A stretch of DNA of 43,723 nt from contig JAJPWX010000112.1 in the NCBI GenBank assembly GCA_021205755.1, positions 1-43,723 on the forward strand. The letters are read 5' to 3'. Positions within the stretch are counted from its first letter, which is position 1, and each line of letters starts with the position of its first letter. The notes below the pieces were generated by a model. That model was not told where the DNA came from. It worked only from the letters and a program-made list of their open reading frames with translations, and did not search any database. Below, piece after piece: positions 8,792 through 43,576 of the stretch. The translations under genes and the position numbers were made by a program. The DNA is from Lachnospiraceae bacterium. GTDB lineage: Bacteria; Bacillota; Clostridia; Lachnospirales; Lachnospiraceae.

Positions 8792-9563
8792 GATACAGAG
8801 CGCGTTTGCGCATGGAAAAGCATTCATCCCGTTTATCACCTGCGGCGACCCATCGCTGGCGGTGACAGAGCAGCTGGTCTACGCGATGGAAAAAGCGGGA
8901 GCAGACCTGATTGAGCTTGGCATTCCATTTTCAGACCCAACCGCGGAAGGTCCGGTCATCCAGGAGGCGAACAACCGCGCCCTCTCTGGCGGTGTGACCA
9001 CGGACAAGATCTTTGATATGGTAAAAAAGATTCGCGAAAATACGCAGATTCCAATGGTATTCATGACCTACGCGAACGTTGTATTTTCTTATGGCATTGA
9101 GCGATTCGTAAAGACGTCAGCGGAGGTCGGCATGGACGGCATCATCCTCCCCGACGTGCCTTTTGAAGAAAAAGAAGAGTTCGCCGCTACCTGCCGTGAA
9201 AATGGACTGGCGCTGGTCTCTCTGATCGCGCCGACTTCCCATGAGCGTGTCGCGCAGATTGCCTCCGCGGCAGAGGGCTTCATCTATTGCGTTTCCTCCC
9301 TGGGTGTGACGGGTGTCCGCTCCGAGATAACGACCGATATCGGTGAGATGGTGCGGCTGGTGCGTGCAGCCTCCGACATCCCGTGTGCCATCGGTTTTGG
9401 TATCTCCACGCCGGAGCAGGCCGCAAAGATGGCTAAGGAAGCTGATGGCGTCATCGTCGGCTCCGCGATTGTGAAGCTCTGCAAGGAGTACGGCGCGGAC
9501 TGTGTGCCGAAGGTCGCGGAGTATGTGAAGAGCATGAAGGATGCGATCCGGGTGCGGCATTAG
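8784..9563 (+). CDS. trpA: Tryptophan synthase alpha chain (TrpA)
   Basis: A 259-residue TIM-barrel subunit that cleaves indole-3-glycerol phosphate to indole and glyceraldehyde 3-phosphate. Glu44 in [11 protein letters not shown] matches the general acid/base Glu49 of the Salmonella enzyme. The residue equivalent to catalytic Asp60 is Glu55 (PTAEGP instead of LADGP), a conservative change. [10 protein letters not shown] and [11 protein letters not shown] form the phosphate site. The start is ATG 8784 with GGGGAGG upstream, overlapping the end of trpB by 8 bases. It is the last gene of the operon; a strong terminator follows 30 bp later. Confidence 0.97.
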
Positions 9564-9593
9564 CCGCAAGACTCTTTGCCCAGCCCTGTGCAT

Positions 9594-9632
9594 AAAAAAG
9601 CCGCAGAACATGGATTTGTTTGCGGCTTTTTT
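9594..9632 (+). terminator. Intrinsic terminator of the trp operon
   Basis: AAAAAAGCCGCA (9594-9605) pairs with TGCGGCTTTTTT (9621-9632) across a 15-nt loop. The U-tract is part of the 3' arm. It ends the trp transcription unit. Confidence 0.9.
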
Positions 9633-9645
9633 AAATTGGGAGAAA

Positions 9646-9674: not shown

Positions 9675-9789
9675 GTACCTGACTGAAAGCAGATTTTAAT
9701 GATTGCATAATGCCCGCATTGTGCGGCGGATTGATCGGAGAGCGGATATTCTATAATGCTTTAGACAGTACCGGAGATTGGAGGAGCCT

Positions 9790-11007
9790 ATGCAGAAAAC
9801 TTTTAATGTCACGGGGGTCTGTGTGCCTGAAAGAAACTATATGGTGGATGTCAGTGACCGTGTGGAACGCATCGTTGAGGACTACGTATCGCCGGGAAAA
9901 TATTTTACAATGAACCGTGCGAGACAGTATGGCAAGACGACGATGTTATATCTGCTTGAGGAAAGACTGAAAGAGTCGTTTATCGTACTTCGATTGAGCT
10001 TTGAAGCCGCAGACGAATATTTTGTTTCCCATGCACTTCTCGCGGAAGGCCTGACGATGGATATAGCGGACTGTCTGCGCAGACAGAGTATAGAGGAAAG
10101 GATCATTCGTGCATGGGAGGCGCCTGTTTCTGAGCGGTTTCCGATGCGCAGTCTGGGAGTAAAGATAACAAACCTTTGCAAAGCGTGTAAAAAGAAAGTG
10201 GTTTTGATGATTGATGAGGTAGACAGAAGTTCTGATAATCAGATTTTTCTTTCTTTCCGTGGTCTTCTTCGCGCAAAGTATCTGGATCAGGCGTCCGGAT
10301 GGGACACCACTTTTTGGTCAGTCATCCTGGCAGGGGTATACGATATAAAAAATTTAAAACAGAAAATGCATCCGAATGTGGAATCGAAATACAATAGTCC
10401 ATGGAACATTGCGGTCGATTTTACAGTTGACATGAGTTTTTCTGCCAGCGATATCGCGTCAATGTTGGTGCAGTATGAAAAGGACTGGGAAACCGGAATG
10501 GATACGGAAAAGATCAGTCAATTATTATACGATTATACTTCTGGCTATCCATTTCTTGTGTCCAGACTTTGTCAGATTATGACAGCCTCATTGAGTGAAA
10601 ATAGTTCAAAAGAAGAGCGAGAAGCTGCCTGGTCTGCGGGAGCGTTTCAGGACGCAGTTCGAGAGATGCTGAAAAAGCCTAATACGCTCTTTGACGATAT
10701 GATAAAAAAACTGGCTGATTTTCCAAAATTAAGAGAAATGATCTACAGCATCCTGTTTCAGGGGAAAAGATATTCTTATGAAGCGGATAATGAACGTATC
10801 CGTATTGGGGAAATGTTTGGTTTCCTGAAAGAAAAGGATGGCGCAGTTGTGGTTGCAAACCGGATATTTGAAATGAAACTGTATAATCTGTTTCTTTCAG
10901 AAGAAGAAACGGAAGAAAAAATAATCTCTGTTGTAGATACAGAGAAAAACCAATTTGTTTTGGGCGGACATCTGCAAATGGAATTGATTTTGAAAAAATT
11001 CGAATAA
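9790..11007 (+). CDS. AAA-ATPase-like protein, apparently lacking the usual C-terminal nuclease domain
   Basis: A 405-residue P-loop ATPase of the group often annotated as AAA-like ATPase with a PD-(D/E)XK nuclease domain, common in gut Clostridia and Bacteroidetes. The nucleotide site is the family variant NRARQYGKTTM (about residue 45) in place of a canonical Walker A. Walker B is VVLMIDEVDRSS, followed by the FLSFRGLLR and TTFWSVILAGVYDIKNL sensor-like region. Related proteins, as I remember them, run to 520-560 residues and end in a PD-(D/E)XK domain after a segment like the GGHLQMELILKKFE seen here. This ORF stops exactly at that segment, and the bases after the stop do not encode the missing domain in any frame I read. 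The start is ATG 9790 with GGAGG 5 bases upstream. The cellular role is unknown; related genes are often present in many copies. Confidence 0.7.
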   Translation: MQKTFNVTGVCVPERNYMVDVSDRVERIVEDYVSPGKYFTMNRARQYGKTTMLYLLEERLKESFIVLRLSFEAADEYFVSHALLAEGLTMDIADCLRRQSIEERIIRAWEAPVSERFPMRSLGVKITNLCKACKKKVVLMIDEVDRSSDNQIFLSFRGLLRAKYLDQASGWDTTFWSVILAGVYDIKNLKQKMHPNVESKYNSPWNIAVDFTVDMSFSASDIASMLVQYEKDWETGMDTEKISQLLYDYTSGYPFLVSRLCQIMTASLSENSSKEEREAAWSAGAFQDAVREMLKKPNTLFDDMIKKLADFPKLREMIYSILFQGKRYSYEADNERIRIGEMFGFLKEKDGAVVVANRIFEMKLYNLFLSEEETEEKIISVVDTEKNQFVLGGHLQMELILKKFE

Positions 11008-36622: not shown

Positions 36623-36671
36623 GAAACACTGATTTCGAGTTTTTTCTTTCATAATAATTTCCTCATAAAGG

Positions 36672-36698
36672 CAGGAGGGGTTCATCCCCTCCTGTTTT
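36672..36698 (+). terminator. Intrinsic terminator after the permease pair
   Basis: CAGGAGGGG (36672-36680) with CCCCTCCTG (36686-36694), a TTCAT loop and a trailing TTTT. Confidence 0.88.
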
Positions 36699-36816
36699 GT
36701 AAACTTTACGGAATGAGTAAAAAAACACAAGACATTTTGCGTAATATGTGTTAAATATAAAGGAAGAGATGAATCAATAAATCTGGCGATGTAAGCTAAA
36801 AATTTGGGAGGACACA

Positions 36817-39824: not shown

Positions 39825-40814
39825 TTATTCCCGCGTCGTCCCTCCATTGACATAATGCACCGGCAGGCATACGAGTGGGGGCGCCTTCGACAAGTCAGAG
39901 TTCAAAAGCAGATTGACGCTGGTCTGGGCGATCTGCTCGATGGGCTGCACGATGGTGGAGCAGTAATAGCTGCCGGTGGCGTAATCCTTTATCCCGTCGA
40001 ACCCGATGACCTGCACGTCCTGCGGGACGCGGATGCCAAGCTCATACAGCTTCACGATCATAAGGCGTGCCAGCGTGTCCGTGCCGCAGAAAATGCCGTC
40101 AAAATCAAATTTCCCGTCTGTGATGTGTTCAGCAAGATAATCATAAAAAACAGAATAGGGCGTGCCGTCGGTCAGGCAAAGCATCTGGTAGTCCAGTCCC
40201 ATGGAGACACAGGCGCTGACAAAGCCGTCCCGCCGCTTGGTCGCCTCGTTAGGCAGGGCGGAGCTGATACTCATATGCAGCAGGTGCTTGCAGCCAAGCT
40301 CAGCGAGCTTCCGCACGGCGAGCTGGCCGCCCGTGAGATTGTCGCTGGCTACACAGGGGGATACGACGCCGGAGTGCCGGTCGATGGTTACGAGACGGGT
40401 GCTCTCCCGAATCTGTAACCCTTCATTATAGGAAATGCAGATGATGCCGTCTACCCGGTTTTGCTCTGCCATGTCGAGGAGAGCCTGCTCCATCTCCGGG
40501 CTGGCCTGTGTCGCGCACAGCAGCATGCGATATCCGTTTTTCGCCAGCTCACGGTTCACGTAGAAGGTCAGTTCCCCGAAAAATGGATTGATCGTGTCCG
40601 GGACCAAAAAGGCGACGGTCTGTGTTTTATTCGACTTCAGCCCCTGCGCGTAGCTGTTGACCCGGTAGTCCAGCTTATGGATGGCGGCGTCTACCTTTTT
40701 CTGATAATCCTTTCCCACCGGAATTCCGTTTACGACCTTGGACACGGTGCCAAGCGACACGCCCGCCTCCTTCGCGACGTCCTTCATGGTGGGTGAAACA
40801 TTTTTCTCTGCCAT
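39825..40814 (-). CDS. LacI/GalR-family transcriptional regulator (second)
   Basis: A 329-residue regulator. The helix-turn-helix TMKDVAKEAGVSLGTVSKVVNG and the hinge segment YRVNSYAQGLKSNKT are standard. The effector domain covers VAFLVPDTINPFFGELTFYV, VDGIICISYN, DFDGIFCGTDTLARLMIVKLYELG and VQVIGFDG. The start at 40814 (minus strand) is preceded by AAAGGAGT. It is divergent from the permease-GH32 gene, and the 497-bp region between them holds four operator-like sites, so it most likely represses that unit and itself in response to a fructose-containing sugar (inferred from GH32). Confidence 0.93.
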   Translation of the reverse strand: MAEKNVSPTMKDVAKEAGVSLGTVSKVVNGIPVGKDYQKKVDAAIHKLDYRVNSYAQGLKSNKTQTVAFLVPDTINPFFGELTFYVNRELAKNGYRMLLCATQASPEMEQALLDMAEQNRVDGIICISYNEGLQIRESTRLVTIDRHSGVVSPCVASDNLTGGQLAVRKLAELGCKHLLHMSISSALPNEATKRRDGFVSACVSMGLDYQMLCLTDGTPYSVFYDYLAEHITDGKFDFDGIFCGTDTLARLMIVKLYELGIRVPQDVQVIGFDGIKDYATGSYYCSTIVQPIEQIAQTSVNLLLNSDLSKAPPLVCLPVHYVNGGTTRE

Positions 40815-41085: not shown

Positions 41086-41115
41086 TTGACAATTGTCTTG
41101 AGAATGGTGTATGAT
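41086..41115 (+). promoter_or_regulatory. Promoter of the permease-GH32 gene
   Basis: TTGACA (41086-41091), an 18-bp spacer and TATGAT (41110-41115). Operator O3 starts about 16 bp downstream of the -10, covering the early transcribed region. Confidence 0.75.
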
Positions 41116-41130
41116 GCGGTCATCAGATAA

Positions 41131-41205
41131 ATATAACGTTTCACGAAAGAATTCCCTGGACGGAACACAGGGAATATTATTTGAAGGAGACGTGAAACGT
41201 TATAC
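41131..41205. promoter_or_regulatory. Operators O3 and O4: exact inverted pair enclosing a hairpin
   Basis: TATAACGTTTCACG (41132-41145, O3) and CGTGAAACGTTATA (41191-41204, O4) are exact reverse complements. Between them ATTCCCTG (41151-41158) pairs with CAGGGAAT (41169-41176). O3 lies at the transcription start and O4 about 60 bp into the leader. LacI-type dimers or tetramers could bind both; the RNA could also fold into one long nested stem. Confidence 0.7.
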
Positions 41206-41311
41206 GAAAACAGGATAAGCCTAAGGGCAGGGAAGGTTCGAAATTGATTCGATGAAATCAAAAGAACGGTTCCGCAGCCATCCGGGCGAATCAAAGTAAG
41301 GAGGGATTCTT

Positions 41312-43576
41312 GTGAGTGTTCAGGCAACCGCGGCGAAAAAAGCCGGCAACATGGAAGGGAAACCGGGACAGAAGAAAAAAGGGGCTTCACTGGCCCGACG
41401 GCTGAGGCAGAGCTGGCAGTTATATGTCATGCTGCTGATACCGATTATCATTACCATTATTTATAAGTATATTCCGATGTATGGTATTCAGATCGCGTTT
41501 CGGGATTATAAGGCGAGCAAAGGATACCTGGGAAGCGAGTGGGTGGGGCTGAAATGGTTCCAGAGATTTTTCTCTTCGCCAAACTGCATCCGCATGATTC
41601 GGAATACGGTGCTGCTCAGTCTGTACAGTCTGCTGTGGAGCTTTCCGATTCCGGTCATCTTATCGCTGGCGATCAACCAGCTGCGGTTCCACCGCTATAA
41701 GAGAGTGGTGCAGACCGTTCTGTATGCACCGCACTTTATCTCAACCATGATCATCTGTGGTATGCTTCGGATTTTCCTGAGCCCATCCGGCGGTCTCATC
41801 AACCTGCTGCTGGGAACACAGATTGATTTCCTGACGCAGAGCACCGCGTTCCGCACCATCTACATCGCGTCAGGCATCTGGCAGGACGCAGGCTGGGGAA
41901 TGATCATTTACCTGGCGACGCTGGCAAGCGTAGATACGACCTTGTATGAGGTAGCGAAAGTAGACGGCGCTTCCATGTTCCAGCGGATCAAGAATATCGA
42001 TTTTCCGGCGCTGGTTCCGATGATGGTTTTTGAACCTGATCATGAGCGCGGGCGGCCTGATGAATGTCGGTTTCGAGAAAGTGTGGCTTTTACAGACAGA
42101 CCTGAAAAATTGAAAAAGGCGCGTGAGTATGAGGAAAAATATGCCCGCTTCATTTCGGATGAGGAGCGTCCCGCTTATCATCTGACCCCGCGCATTGGCT
42201 GGATGAACGATCCGAATGGCTTCTCTTTTTATAATGGGGCGTATCACCTTTTTTACCAGTATCACCCTTACAGCCTGGAATGGGGTCCCATGCACTGGGG
42301 TCACGCCGTCAGCCGGGATTTGCTTCACTGGGAATATCTGCCGTGCGCGCTGGCTCCGGATCAGGATTATGATGGCTTTGGCTGCTTCTCCGGAAGTGCG
42401 TCAGAGCTTCCGGATGGCAGGCAGCTGCTGATGTATACCGGTGTGCGGGAAGAAATGTGTGAGGATGGGAGACAGAAAACGGTTCAGACGCAGTGCATGG
42501 CAGTCGGCGATGGCCTGAATTATGAAAAGTATGAAGTGAATCCGGTTCTCGATGAGACGAGCCTGCCTGCGGGGGGCAGCCGTCTGGATTTCCGCGATCC
42601 GAAGCTGTGGCGGGAAGAGGATGGCTCCTTCGCCTGCATTGTGGGCAACCGCACAGAGGATGGCAGTGGCTCTCTGCTGCTGTACCGCTCGGAAGATGGA
42701 TTTCACTGGAATTTTGAGACGATTGTAGACCGCTCCTATAACGAGTTCGGGAAAATGTGGGAATGCCCGGATATGTTTGAACTGGATGGGAAAACAGTGA
42801 TCCTGACCAGTCCGCAGGAGATGAGCCAGAGCGGCCTGGAGTTTCACAACGGAAATGGCACGATGTACCTGATCGGCCAGTATGACCGGGAGAAAAAGCA
42901 CTTCGAGCGGGAAAATCTGGGGGCGATTGATTACGGCATTGACTTTTATGCGCCGCAGACCGTGCAGGCGCCGGACGGACGCCGGATTATGATCGGCTGG
43001 ATGCAGAACTGGGATGCCTGCGTGGCTCCATCCGGACGCTCCCGCTGGATTGGGCAGATGACGATACCCAGAGAGCTGCGCATCGTCGATGGGAAGCTAT
43101 TGCAGATGCCGATCCGCGAAATTGAGACACTGCGTGGTCACCGGGTTTATCACCGGATGTCGCTGTGCAACGAAAATACGTTACAGGGGATTTTTGGCCG
43201 CAGGATTGATCTGACGGTCACCCTGACTCCGAGCGAAGAAGAGAGCTACGAACGCTTTCGGATTCGGCTGGCCAGAGGAAGCCGGCATTATACGATGATT
43301 TCTTATAACCCGAAAACCTCTGTGCTGAAGATTGATCGGAACAATTCCGGCTGCTGCCGCGATGTGGTTCATGAACGCCGCTGCTTTGTACGGCAGCAGA
43401 GAGGAAAACTGAAGCTGCGGATTTTGCTGGATCAGTATAGCGTGGAAGTGTTTGTGAATGACGGGGAGCAGGCACTCACGACAGCGATTTACACACCAAT
43501 GAGCGCGGACGGGATCAGCTTCGAGGTGGACGGACGCGTGGAACTGGAAGTGGAGAAGTATGAGCTGCGCTCGTGA
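41312..43576 (+). CDS. Chimeric ORF: truncated ABC sugar permease fused in frame to GH32 beta-fructosidase
   Basis: A 754-residue ORF that starts at GTG 41312 after TAAGGAGGG. Residues 1-240 are the N-terminal two thirds of an LplB-type ABC permease (LLIPIIITIIYKYIPMYGIQ, then an EAA loop YEVAKVDGASMFQRIKN). Residues 241-264 have no family match because they are permease codons read out of frame. From about residue 265 (EKLKKAREYEEKYA) it is a GH32 hydrolase of sucrose or fructans: nucleophile Asp300 in WMNDPNGF, RDPK with Asp429, acid/base Glu484 in WECPD, and a C-terminal beta-sandwich. The GH32 part is complete except for its first codons. Such permease-hydrolase fusions are not a known architecture. 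The join suggests deletion of the rest of the permease, a second permease and a binding protein, or an assembly error. Whether a membrane-anchored GH32 works is unknown. Confidence 0.8.
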   Translation: MSVQATAAKKAGNMEGKPGQKKKGASLARRLRQSWQLYVMLLIPIIITIIYKYIPMYGIQIAFRDYKASKGYLGSEWVGLKWFQRFFSSPNCIRMIRNTVLLSLYSLLWSFPIPVILSLAINQLRFHRYKRVVQTVLYAPHFISTMIICGMLRIFLSPSGGLINLLLGTQIDFLTQSTAFRTIYIASGIWQDAGWGMIIYLATLASVDTTLYEVAKVDGASMFQRIKNIDFPALVPMMVFEPDHERGRPDECRFRESVAFTDRPEKLKKAREYEEKYARFISDEERPAYHLTPRIGWMNDPNGFSFYNGAYHLFYQYHPYSLEWGPMHWGHAVSRDLLHWEYLPCALAPDQDYDGFGCFSGSASELPDGRQLLMYTGVREEMCEDGRQKTVQTQCMAVGDGLNYEKYEVNPVLDETSLPAGGSRLDFRDPKLWREEDGSFACIVGNRTEDGSGSLLLYRSEDGFHWNFETIVDRSYNEFGKMWECPDMFELDGKTVILTSPQEMSQSGLEFHNGNGTMYLIGQYDREKKHFERENLGAIDYGIDFYAPQTVQAPDGRRIMIGWMQNWDACVAPSGRSRWIGQMTIPRELRIVDGKLLQMPIREIETLRGHRVYHRMSLCNENTLQGIFGRRIDLTVTLTPSEEESYERFRIRLARGSRHYTMISYNPKTSVLKIDRNNSGCCRDVVHERRCFVRQQRGKLKLRILLDQYSVEVFVNDGEQALTTAIYTPMSADGISFEVDGRVELEVEKYELRS
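42027..42113 (+). pseudogene. Frameshifted tail of the ABC permease inside the chimeric ORF
   Basis: After the T5 run at 42027-42031, the frame offset by one base reads LNLIMSAGGLMNVGFEKVWL and then LQTDLKN before a TGA at 42111-42113. This is the expected continuation of an LplB-type permease (the GFEKV..L block) and shows that the permease frame was lost at the T-run. The match stops at LLQTDL, about 42104, where GH32 sequence takes over: this is the apparent deletion junction. A TTG at 42110 overlaps the TGA but has no ribosome site. Confidence 0.8.

Follow-up and report, generated by a model that had tools for sequence, protein, structure and literature searches.

We show that, in the genome of a gut Lachnospiraceae bacterium, a deletion of about 3 kb and a one-base gain in a T run together place the first part of an ABC permease gene and a nearly whole GH32 gene in one open reading frame. 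We read this frame, with a probability of roughly 60%, as a young product of decay in a lineage that is losing the pathway, its openness being most likely a by-product of the kind called a deletion-born fusion. The window, by which we mean the whole stretch of 43,723 nucleotides that was analysed, is one entire contig (C128) of the 136-contig, 4.02-Mb genome G000, which is 99.86% complete and 0.35% contaminated. It was compared with four relatives of the same genus, G010, G053 (= L031), G048 (= L032) and G052, and also with G015 (= L042).

Architecture of the fusion reading frame

The fusion frame (41312-43576, forward strand) starts at GTG, encodes 754 amino acids and has no internal stops. 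Codons 1-239 are those of an ABC permease, codons 240-264 read permease DNA in a shifted frame, and GH32 follows from codon 265 onward in the frame of the ORF itself (Table 1). The retained permease part matches the G010 permease at 97% over aa 1-247 (blastp) and aligns with residues 6-219 of the 301 residues of AlgM1 (4tqu; phmmer). Pfam recovers a partial BPD_transp_1 domain (PF00528) spanning positions 6-111 of the 184-position profile, against 6-180 in the intact permease of a relative. With this domain partial, and with the partner permease and the binding protein deleted, the locus no longer encodes a complete binding-protein-dependent permease.

The GH32 part carries a full Glyco_hydro_32N domain (PF00251, 1-307 of 307, 335.8 bits) and Glyco_hydro_32C (PF08244, 1-150 of 158, 85.2 bits), and its best solved relative is 7vco, a sucrose-6-phosphate hydrolase. 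The catalytic motifs, which we take to be WMNDPNG, FRDP and EC, are all present and align with 7vco as W(I/M)NDPNG, FRDPK and ECPD. Together with both domains and these motifs, a score of 394 bits with TIGR01322 (scrB; cut-off 356.4, model positions 5-446 of 447) places the protein in the scrB subfamily. It shares with that family a nearly full-length match above the curated cut-off and departs from it in that 264 residues derived from the permease stand in place of the native first three codons (ATG-ACG-ACT in G010; ATG-ATG-ACT in L031 and L032); the loss from the GH32 gene is limited to those codons and the sequence before them. By eye, native GH32 has no signal peptide, and the native enzyme probably also works on the cytoplasmic side.

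Table 1. Coordinates of the features of the fusion locus in the window
Feature	Position	Strand	Basis or remark
LacI-family repressor, 329 aa, intact	39825..40814	-	ORF; Pfam LacI and Peripla_BP
Promoter-like site TTGACA-18-TATGAT for the fusion gene	41086..41115	+	consensus scan, 11/12 bases
Two perfect 14-nt inverted arms, TATAACGTTTCACG / CGTGAAACGTTATA	41132-41145, 41191-41204	.	repeat search
RBS AAGGAGGG	41298..41305	+	read from the sequence, 6 nt before GTG 41312; conserved in G010
Permease 1, codons 1-239, native frame	41312..42028	+	N-terminus, TM1-4 and cytoplasmic loop, by homology
T5 run	42027-42031	+	one T more than in G010, G053 and G052; frame shifted
Permease 1 DNA out of frame, 25 codons (FEPDHERGRPDECRFRESVAFTDRP)	42029..42103	+	hydrophobic TM5 segment lost
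Deletion junction, CTGAA 5-bp microhomology	42102..42106	+	comparison with relatives
GH32 (scrB/beta-fructofuranosidase family), native codon 4 to stop	42104..43576	+	Pfam; TIGR01322
Mobile-element end, cut by contig end	43676..43723	+	hairpin; insertion after TGAAT, no target duplication

The repressor gene is 91-95% identical in DNA to its counterparts in G010, G048, G052 and G053, and both hexamers of the promoter-like site recur in G010; the scan returned 2 sites where 1.1 were expected in shuffled sequence, which leaves this site suggestive only. The inverted arms are conserved in G010 except for one base of the second arm, and they are likely to be LacI operators.

The ancestral operon in related genomes

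All four relatives carry the order LacI (reverse), permease 1, permease 2, binding protein and GH32, the part from permease 1 to GH32 being in the order that the initial annotation had supposed from the usual make-up of such operons, with the GH32 gene of G048 cut by a contig end and its last part on another contig. An intact operon in close relatives, for which that annotation had proposed to look, is thus present in other genomes of the genus. The products measure 320 aa (permease 1), 297 aa (permease 2) and about 550 aa (binding protein), and the window is identical to the four relatives in 93-96% of its DNA over the permease and in 93-95% over GH32. The undeleted ancestral state is therefore preserved in G010, G048, G052 and G053; these four also have the gene make-up of a fructan ABC-GH32 locus (gpPUL), which the window has lost together with its transporter.

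We also surveyed loci with GH32 as the query, considering the best 80 of at least 591, among which the genome under study is possibly absent. GH32 is immediately preceded by all three transporter genes in 42 of these 80 loci, 11 are cut by an edge but have the binding protein, and 27 show something else. A permease fused to GH32 in the same ORF occurs in none of these best 80 of at least 591 loci, and a wider permease-GH32 fusion family was rejected on this ground. A search of literature titles and abstracts returned no permease-GH32 fusion either, which is no proof of absence.

Two lesions open the frame

The deletion measures 3,018 bp against G010 and against L031/G053 alike, in agreement with the earlier estimate of about 3 kb. 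Permease 2 and the binding protein are gone in full, together with the 3' end of permease 1 on one side and, on the other, the GH32 start and what precedes it. The left side of the junction reads GACCTGAACAAGG, the right side ATGACGACTGAAAAATTG in G010 or ATGATGACTGAAAAATTG in L031, and the window GACCTGAAAAATTG; comparison of the three identifies CTGAA as common to both sides. The initial annotation had let GH32 codons begin at about 42104, which is the right region, the junction being this 5-bp repeat rather than a point. Through the deletion, what is left of the permease 1 gene and the GH32 gene now share an open frame of 754 codons. Except for 10 short matches of 73-85% identity, most likely paralogues, the missing stretch has no counterpart in the G000 bin: no long match was found elsewhere (40 of 43 candidates scored), and a search of the bin for a duplicate, intact operon found none.

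The second lesion lies 70 nt upstream of the junction repeat. The run is TTTT in G010, G053 and G052, TATT in G048 and TTTTT in the window alone, which bears out the proposed one-base change in the T tract. The sequence likewise confirms that permease codons run in frame to the T5 run and continue beyond it in the neighbouring frame (NLIMSAGGLMNVGFEKVWLLQTDL), that this old frame would stop at TGA 42111 without the indel, and that GH32 occupies the frame of the ORF. Continuity of the fusion ORF needs the deletion and the extra T together. With four T, the permease frame ends at a TGA that overlaps an in-frame TTG codon of GH32 (TTGA), a possible weak restart at the junction even without the extra base. 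The extra T alone would also kill permease 1, because the shifted frame stops 41, 29 and 41 codons after the run in G010, G053 and G052, respectively.

For programmed frameshifting or for transcriptional slippage, a run of five T is short. Both were rejected as explanations of the run, since the ORF is already continuous and has no need of them, and phase variation was rejected for the same reason and because the run is four bases long in each of the four relatives, with a substitution in one.

Age of the lesions and chance of frame restoration

In an alignment with the four relatives, the window has, over the 238 permease 1 codons that precede the T run, 7 silent changes of its own and none that alters an amino acid. 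Pairwise, the codons differing silently and by amino acid over this part number 47 and 0 for G010, 30 and 1 for G053, 35 and 0 for G048, and 32 and 0 for G052. Over the 24 codons after the run, the window differs from G010, G053, G048 and G052 at 4, 2, 4 and 0 places, and every difference is silent in the old permease frame. Full constraint thus acted on the permease until very recently, and both lesions are young, too young to carry a signal of later selection. Changes found only in the window number 16 silent and 3 amino-acid ones in GH32, a count that skips 26 of 490 codons for gaps, the G048 copy being cut; GH32 too was constrained in the window lineage until recently.

How readily chance could restore the frame can be estimated from the four-T state: of the 794 nt of permease that remain, the upstream stretch over which the GH32 frame has no stop measures 156 nt. 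A random 1-nt indel would thus restore the frame with a probability of 156/794 x 1/2, or about 0.10, if all sites and both indel signs are weighed equally.

Decay around the locus

The gene that follows in the relatives codes for a protein of 800 aa that combines Laminin_G_3 with GH32 (LamG-GH32) and is probably secreted, with a TAT-like N-terminus scoring below the cut-off. Its frame is open over about 800 codons in G010, G048, G052 and G053. In G000 the gene lies on contig C19 (L124 133-1050) and is cut to 305 aa; relative to both L031 and G010 it has suffered a 967-bp frameshifting deletion around L124 1001-1008, and the copy keeps Laminin_G_3, with most of the GH32 N domain removed. Between this gene and GH32 sits a mobile element, inserted at window 43675/43676, about 100 bp past GH32, at a site that is empty in L031. 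Its other end lies at L124 1-55, and contigs C29, C68 and C121 each finish, exactly or to within 2 bases, with the same 53-55 bp of element end. From its hairpin (z -3.57) and its insertion after TGAAT without target duplication, we take the element to be IS200/IS605-like. Two Y1 transposases are encoded elsewhere in G000, and an exact search for three terminal motifs of the element found none in the stretches around both.

PF00251 is found in 43 of 47 genomes of the genus, with three matches in G010, two each in G048, G052 and G053, and one in G000, so that the fusion ORF holds the only GH32 catalytic (N) domain found in that genome. Models for sucrose phosphorylase and the sucrose PTS gave weak matches only, none above the cut-off, in G000, G010 and G015; of 14 control genomes, none scored over the cut-off with the phosphorylase model, which so had no positive control, and 2 did with the PTS model.

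The same site has been hit differently in G015, where another deletion removes LacI and the transporter beside GH32 (L022 10,878-12,462; G015:C275). In the first GH32 of that genome, seven G in a row break the frame; at this run the window and G052 have six G, and G053 has nine, in frame.

The window also differs from G010 away from the fusion. At 9550-9638, G010 carries about 8.2 kb that the window does not have, with another GH32 (535 aa, PF00251) and, by eye and from weak blastp matches, a LacI-like gene, two permeases and a binding protein. At 36667-36806, G010 has about 9.1 kb more, which by eye holds a GH1-like gene and ABC genes of oligopeptide type; G048 and G015 share the greater part of it, and to judge from this distribution the window probably lost it. 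An AAA-ATPase-like ORF at 9778-11007 measures 409 aa, against 532 aa in G010, with 377 bp missing at about 11002. Because of such further breaks relative to G010, for example the one near 11002, decay is not confined to the fusion operon. The whiA gene is whole in the window and split by a frameshift in G010 (L111 about 17,400; G010:C15 near 47,910), a difference that may be a genuine lesion or a fault of the assembly.

Discussion

In the reading that we favour, decay in a lineage losing the pathway, a LacI-controlled fructan/sucrose ABC operon has recently lost 3,018 bp at a direct repeat of 5 bp: permease 2 and the binding protein went entirely, permease 1 lost its end, and GH32 its start codon and upstream sequence. 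The gain of one T, 70 nt upstream of the junction repeat, brings the permease start into frame with GH32. Transport by the fusion operon is dead. The product, if made, would start at the permease GTG, under the promoter-like site, operators and RBS of the permease itself, and would have four transmembrane helices, both ends in the cytoplasm and the whole of GH32 at its C-terminus, the shifted stretch swapping the hydrophobic TM5 segment for a charged one. Hydropathy at the usual threshold makes only some of the helices visible, and it is mainly homology to AlgM1/MalF that points to four helices and a cytoplasmic C-terminus. A membrane-tethered cytoplasmic GH32 enzyme is thus a possible, predicted product of the locus, and its cleavage of sucrose or short fructans would need import through another carrier. 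Comparison with the relatives establishes the deletion with its repeat, the extra T, the ancestral operon, the youth of the lesions and the further damage nearby; the topology of the product, its translation and the absence of selection on it are inferred.

Several observations sit less easily with a by-product of decay. The GH32 part is undamaged and scores above its curated cut-off, its changes in the window lineage are mostly silent, and the further breaks relative to G010 make decay wider than this operon. Moreover, a restored frame around the only GH32 N-domain match in the genome is the pattern expected from selected retention. On that account the T insertion was selected because GH32 regained translation as a permease fusion, giving a working membrane-tethered cytoplasmic fructosidase, and it could draw further on the intact promoter-like site, operator arms and RBS, on the loss of TM5, which by the predicted topology would leave GH32 in the cytoplasm, and on the apparent lack of a signal peptide in the native enzyme. 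We nevertheless regard it as improbable. Roughly one random 1-nt indel in ten would bring the frame back, and selection for the fusion is therefore not demonstrated; the lesions have had too little time to gather a signal of selection, the surroundings of the fusion are plainly in decay, the TTGA at the junction might allow a weak restart even without the extra T, and the searches for sucrose phosphorylase and the sucrose PTS yielded weak matches from models that exceeded their cut-offs in few or none of the control genomes.

The initial annotation had offered a choice between selection to keep GH32 translated and a coincidence in a misassembly. It was right that the deletion and the frame-restoring T are both there, and too narrow in its choice. 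We see no sign of misassembly. An artefact, whether a false join or the merging of a T5 haplotype and a deletion haplotype from two strains, would be in keeping with the 53-55 bases shared by contig ends, which suggest short-read k-mer assembly, with a distance between T run and junction that exceeds this length and so leaves their linkage without guarantee, and with the single-base frameshift in whiA in the assembly of a relative. A 5-bp junction is presumably too short for a k-mer join, though, and the bin holds no long match to the missing DNA; the run of five is short, the permease and GH32 parts have no other coding indel against G010, and a second gene nearby has a deletion of its own. 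We accordingly doubt that the fusion is an artefact. Both lesions could also stem from one complex mutation, in which error-prone synthesis during break repair produced the deletion and the extra T at once, a course of events compatible with decay. The two are separated by 70 nt in which the window has no further change of its own, and break repair in E. coli can employ low-fidelity polymerases (PMC5542668). With a single such pair to go by, we hold this origin to be possible if unlikely.

Fusion by deletion is already a known route, and what the permease-GH32 locus adds is the second, frame-restoring lesion. A preprint by Kaul et al. (2026; PMC12803068) describes fusion by deletion as a general route, and our locus agrees with the cases given there in that a new ORF arises where a deletion brings the front of one reading frame up against the back of another, while relatives keep the ancestral arrangement. 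It differs from them in that the frame needs a second lesion and in that the downstream enzyme is nearly whole; two mycobacterial fusions treated in the preprint lost their catalytic motifs, unlike the GH32 of the window. The operon of the relatives resembles in gene make-up the Roseburia/Eubacterium rectale fructan gpPULs Eub-3 and Eub-4, which combine LacI, ABC transporter and GH32 (PMC5320581). The same paper also reports a truncating permease mutation in the fructan locus of R. faecis M72/1 as the likely cause of its lack of growth on inulin, a point mutation where the window has a 3-kb deletion, a frame shift and a gene fusion. The FOS loci of Blautia, with GH32, an ABC transporter and ScrR (PMC11774028), offer a further intact parallel.

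There is a slim chance that the frame-restoring T rescued the last GH32 after loss of the transporter, which would make the locus a newborn, translated, membrane-tethered GH32; if true, a fused enzyme would have arisen here in two steps, at a time that can be dated. Under the decay reading that we prefer, the locus is a clean and recent example of an operon deletion that fuses neighbouring genes, with relatives that show both ancestral states, and it illustrates that a long, intact ORF can be the scar of gene loss. For the organism itself, the loss of the transporter genes suggests that the species is no longer able to import fructans by this route.
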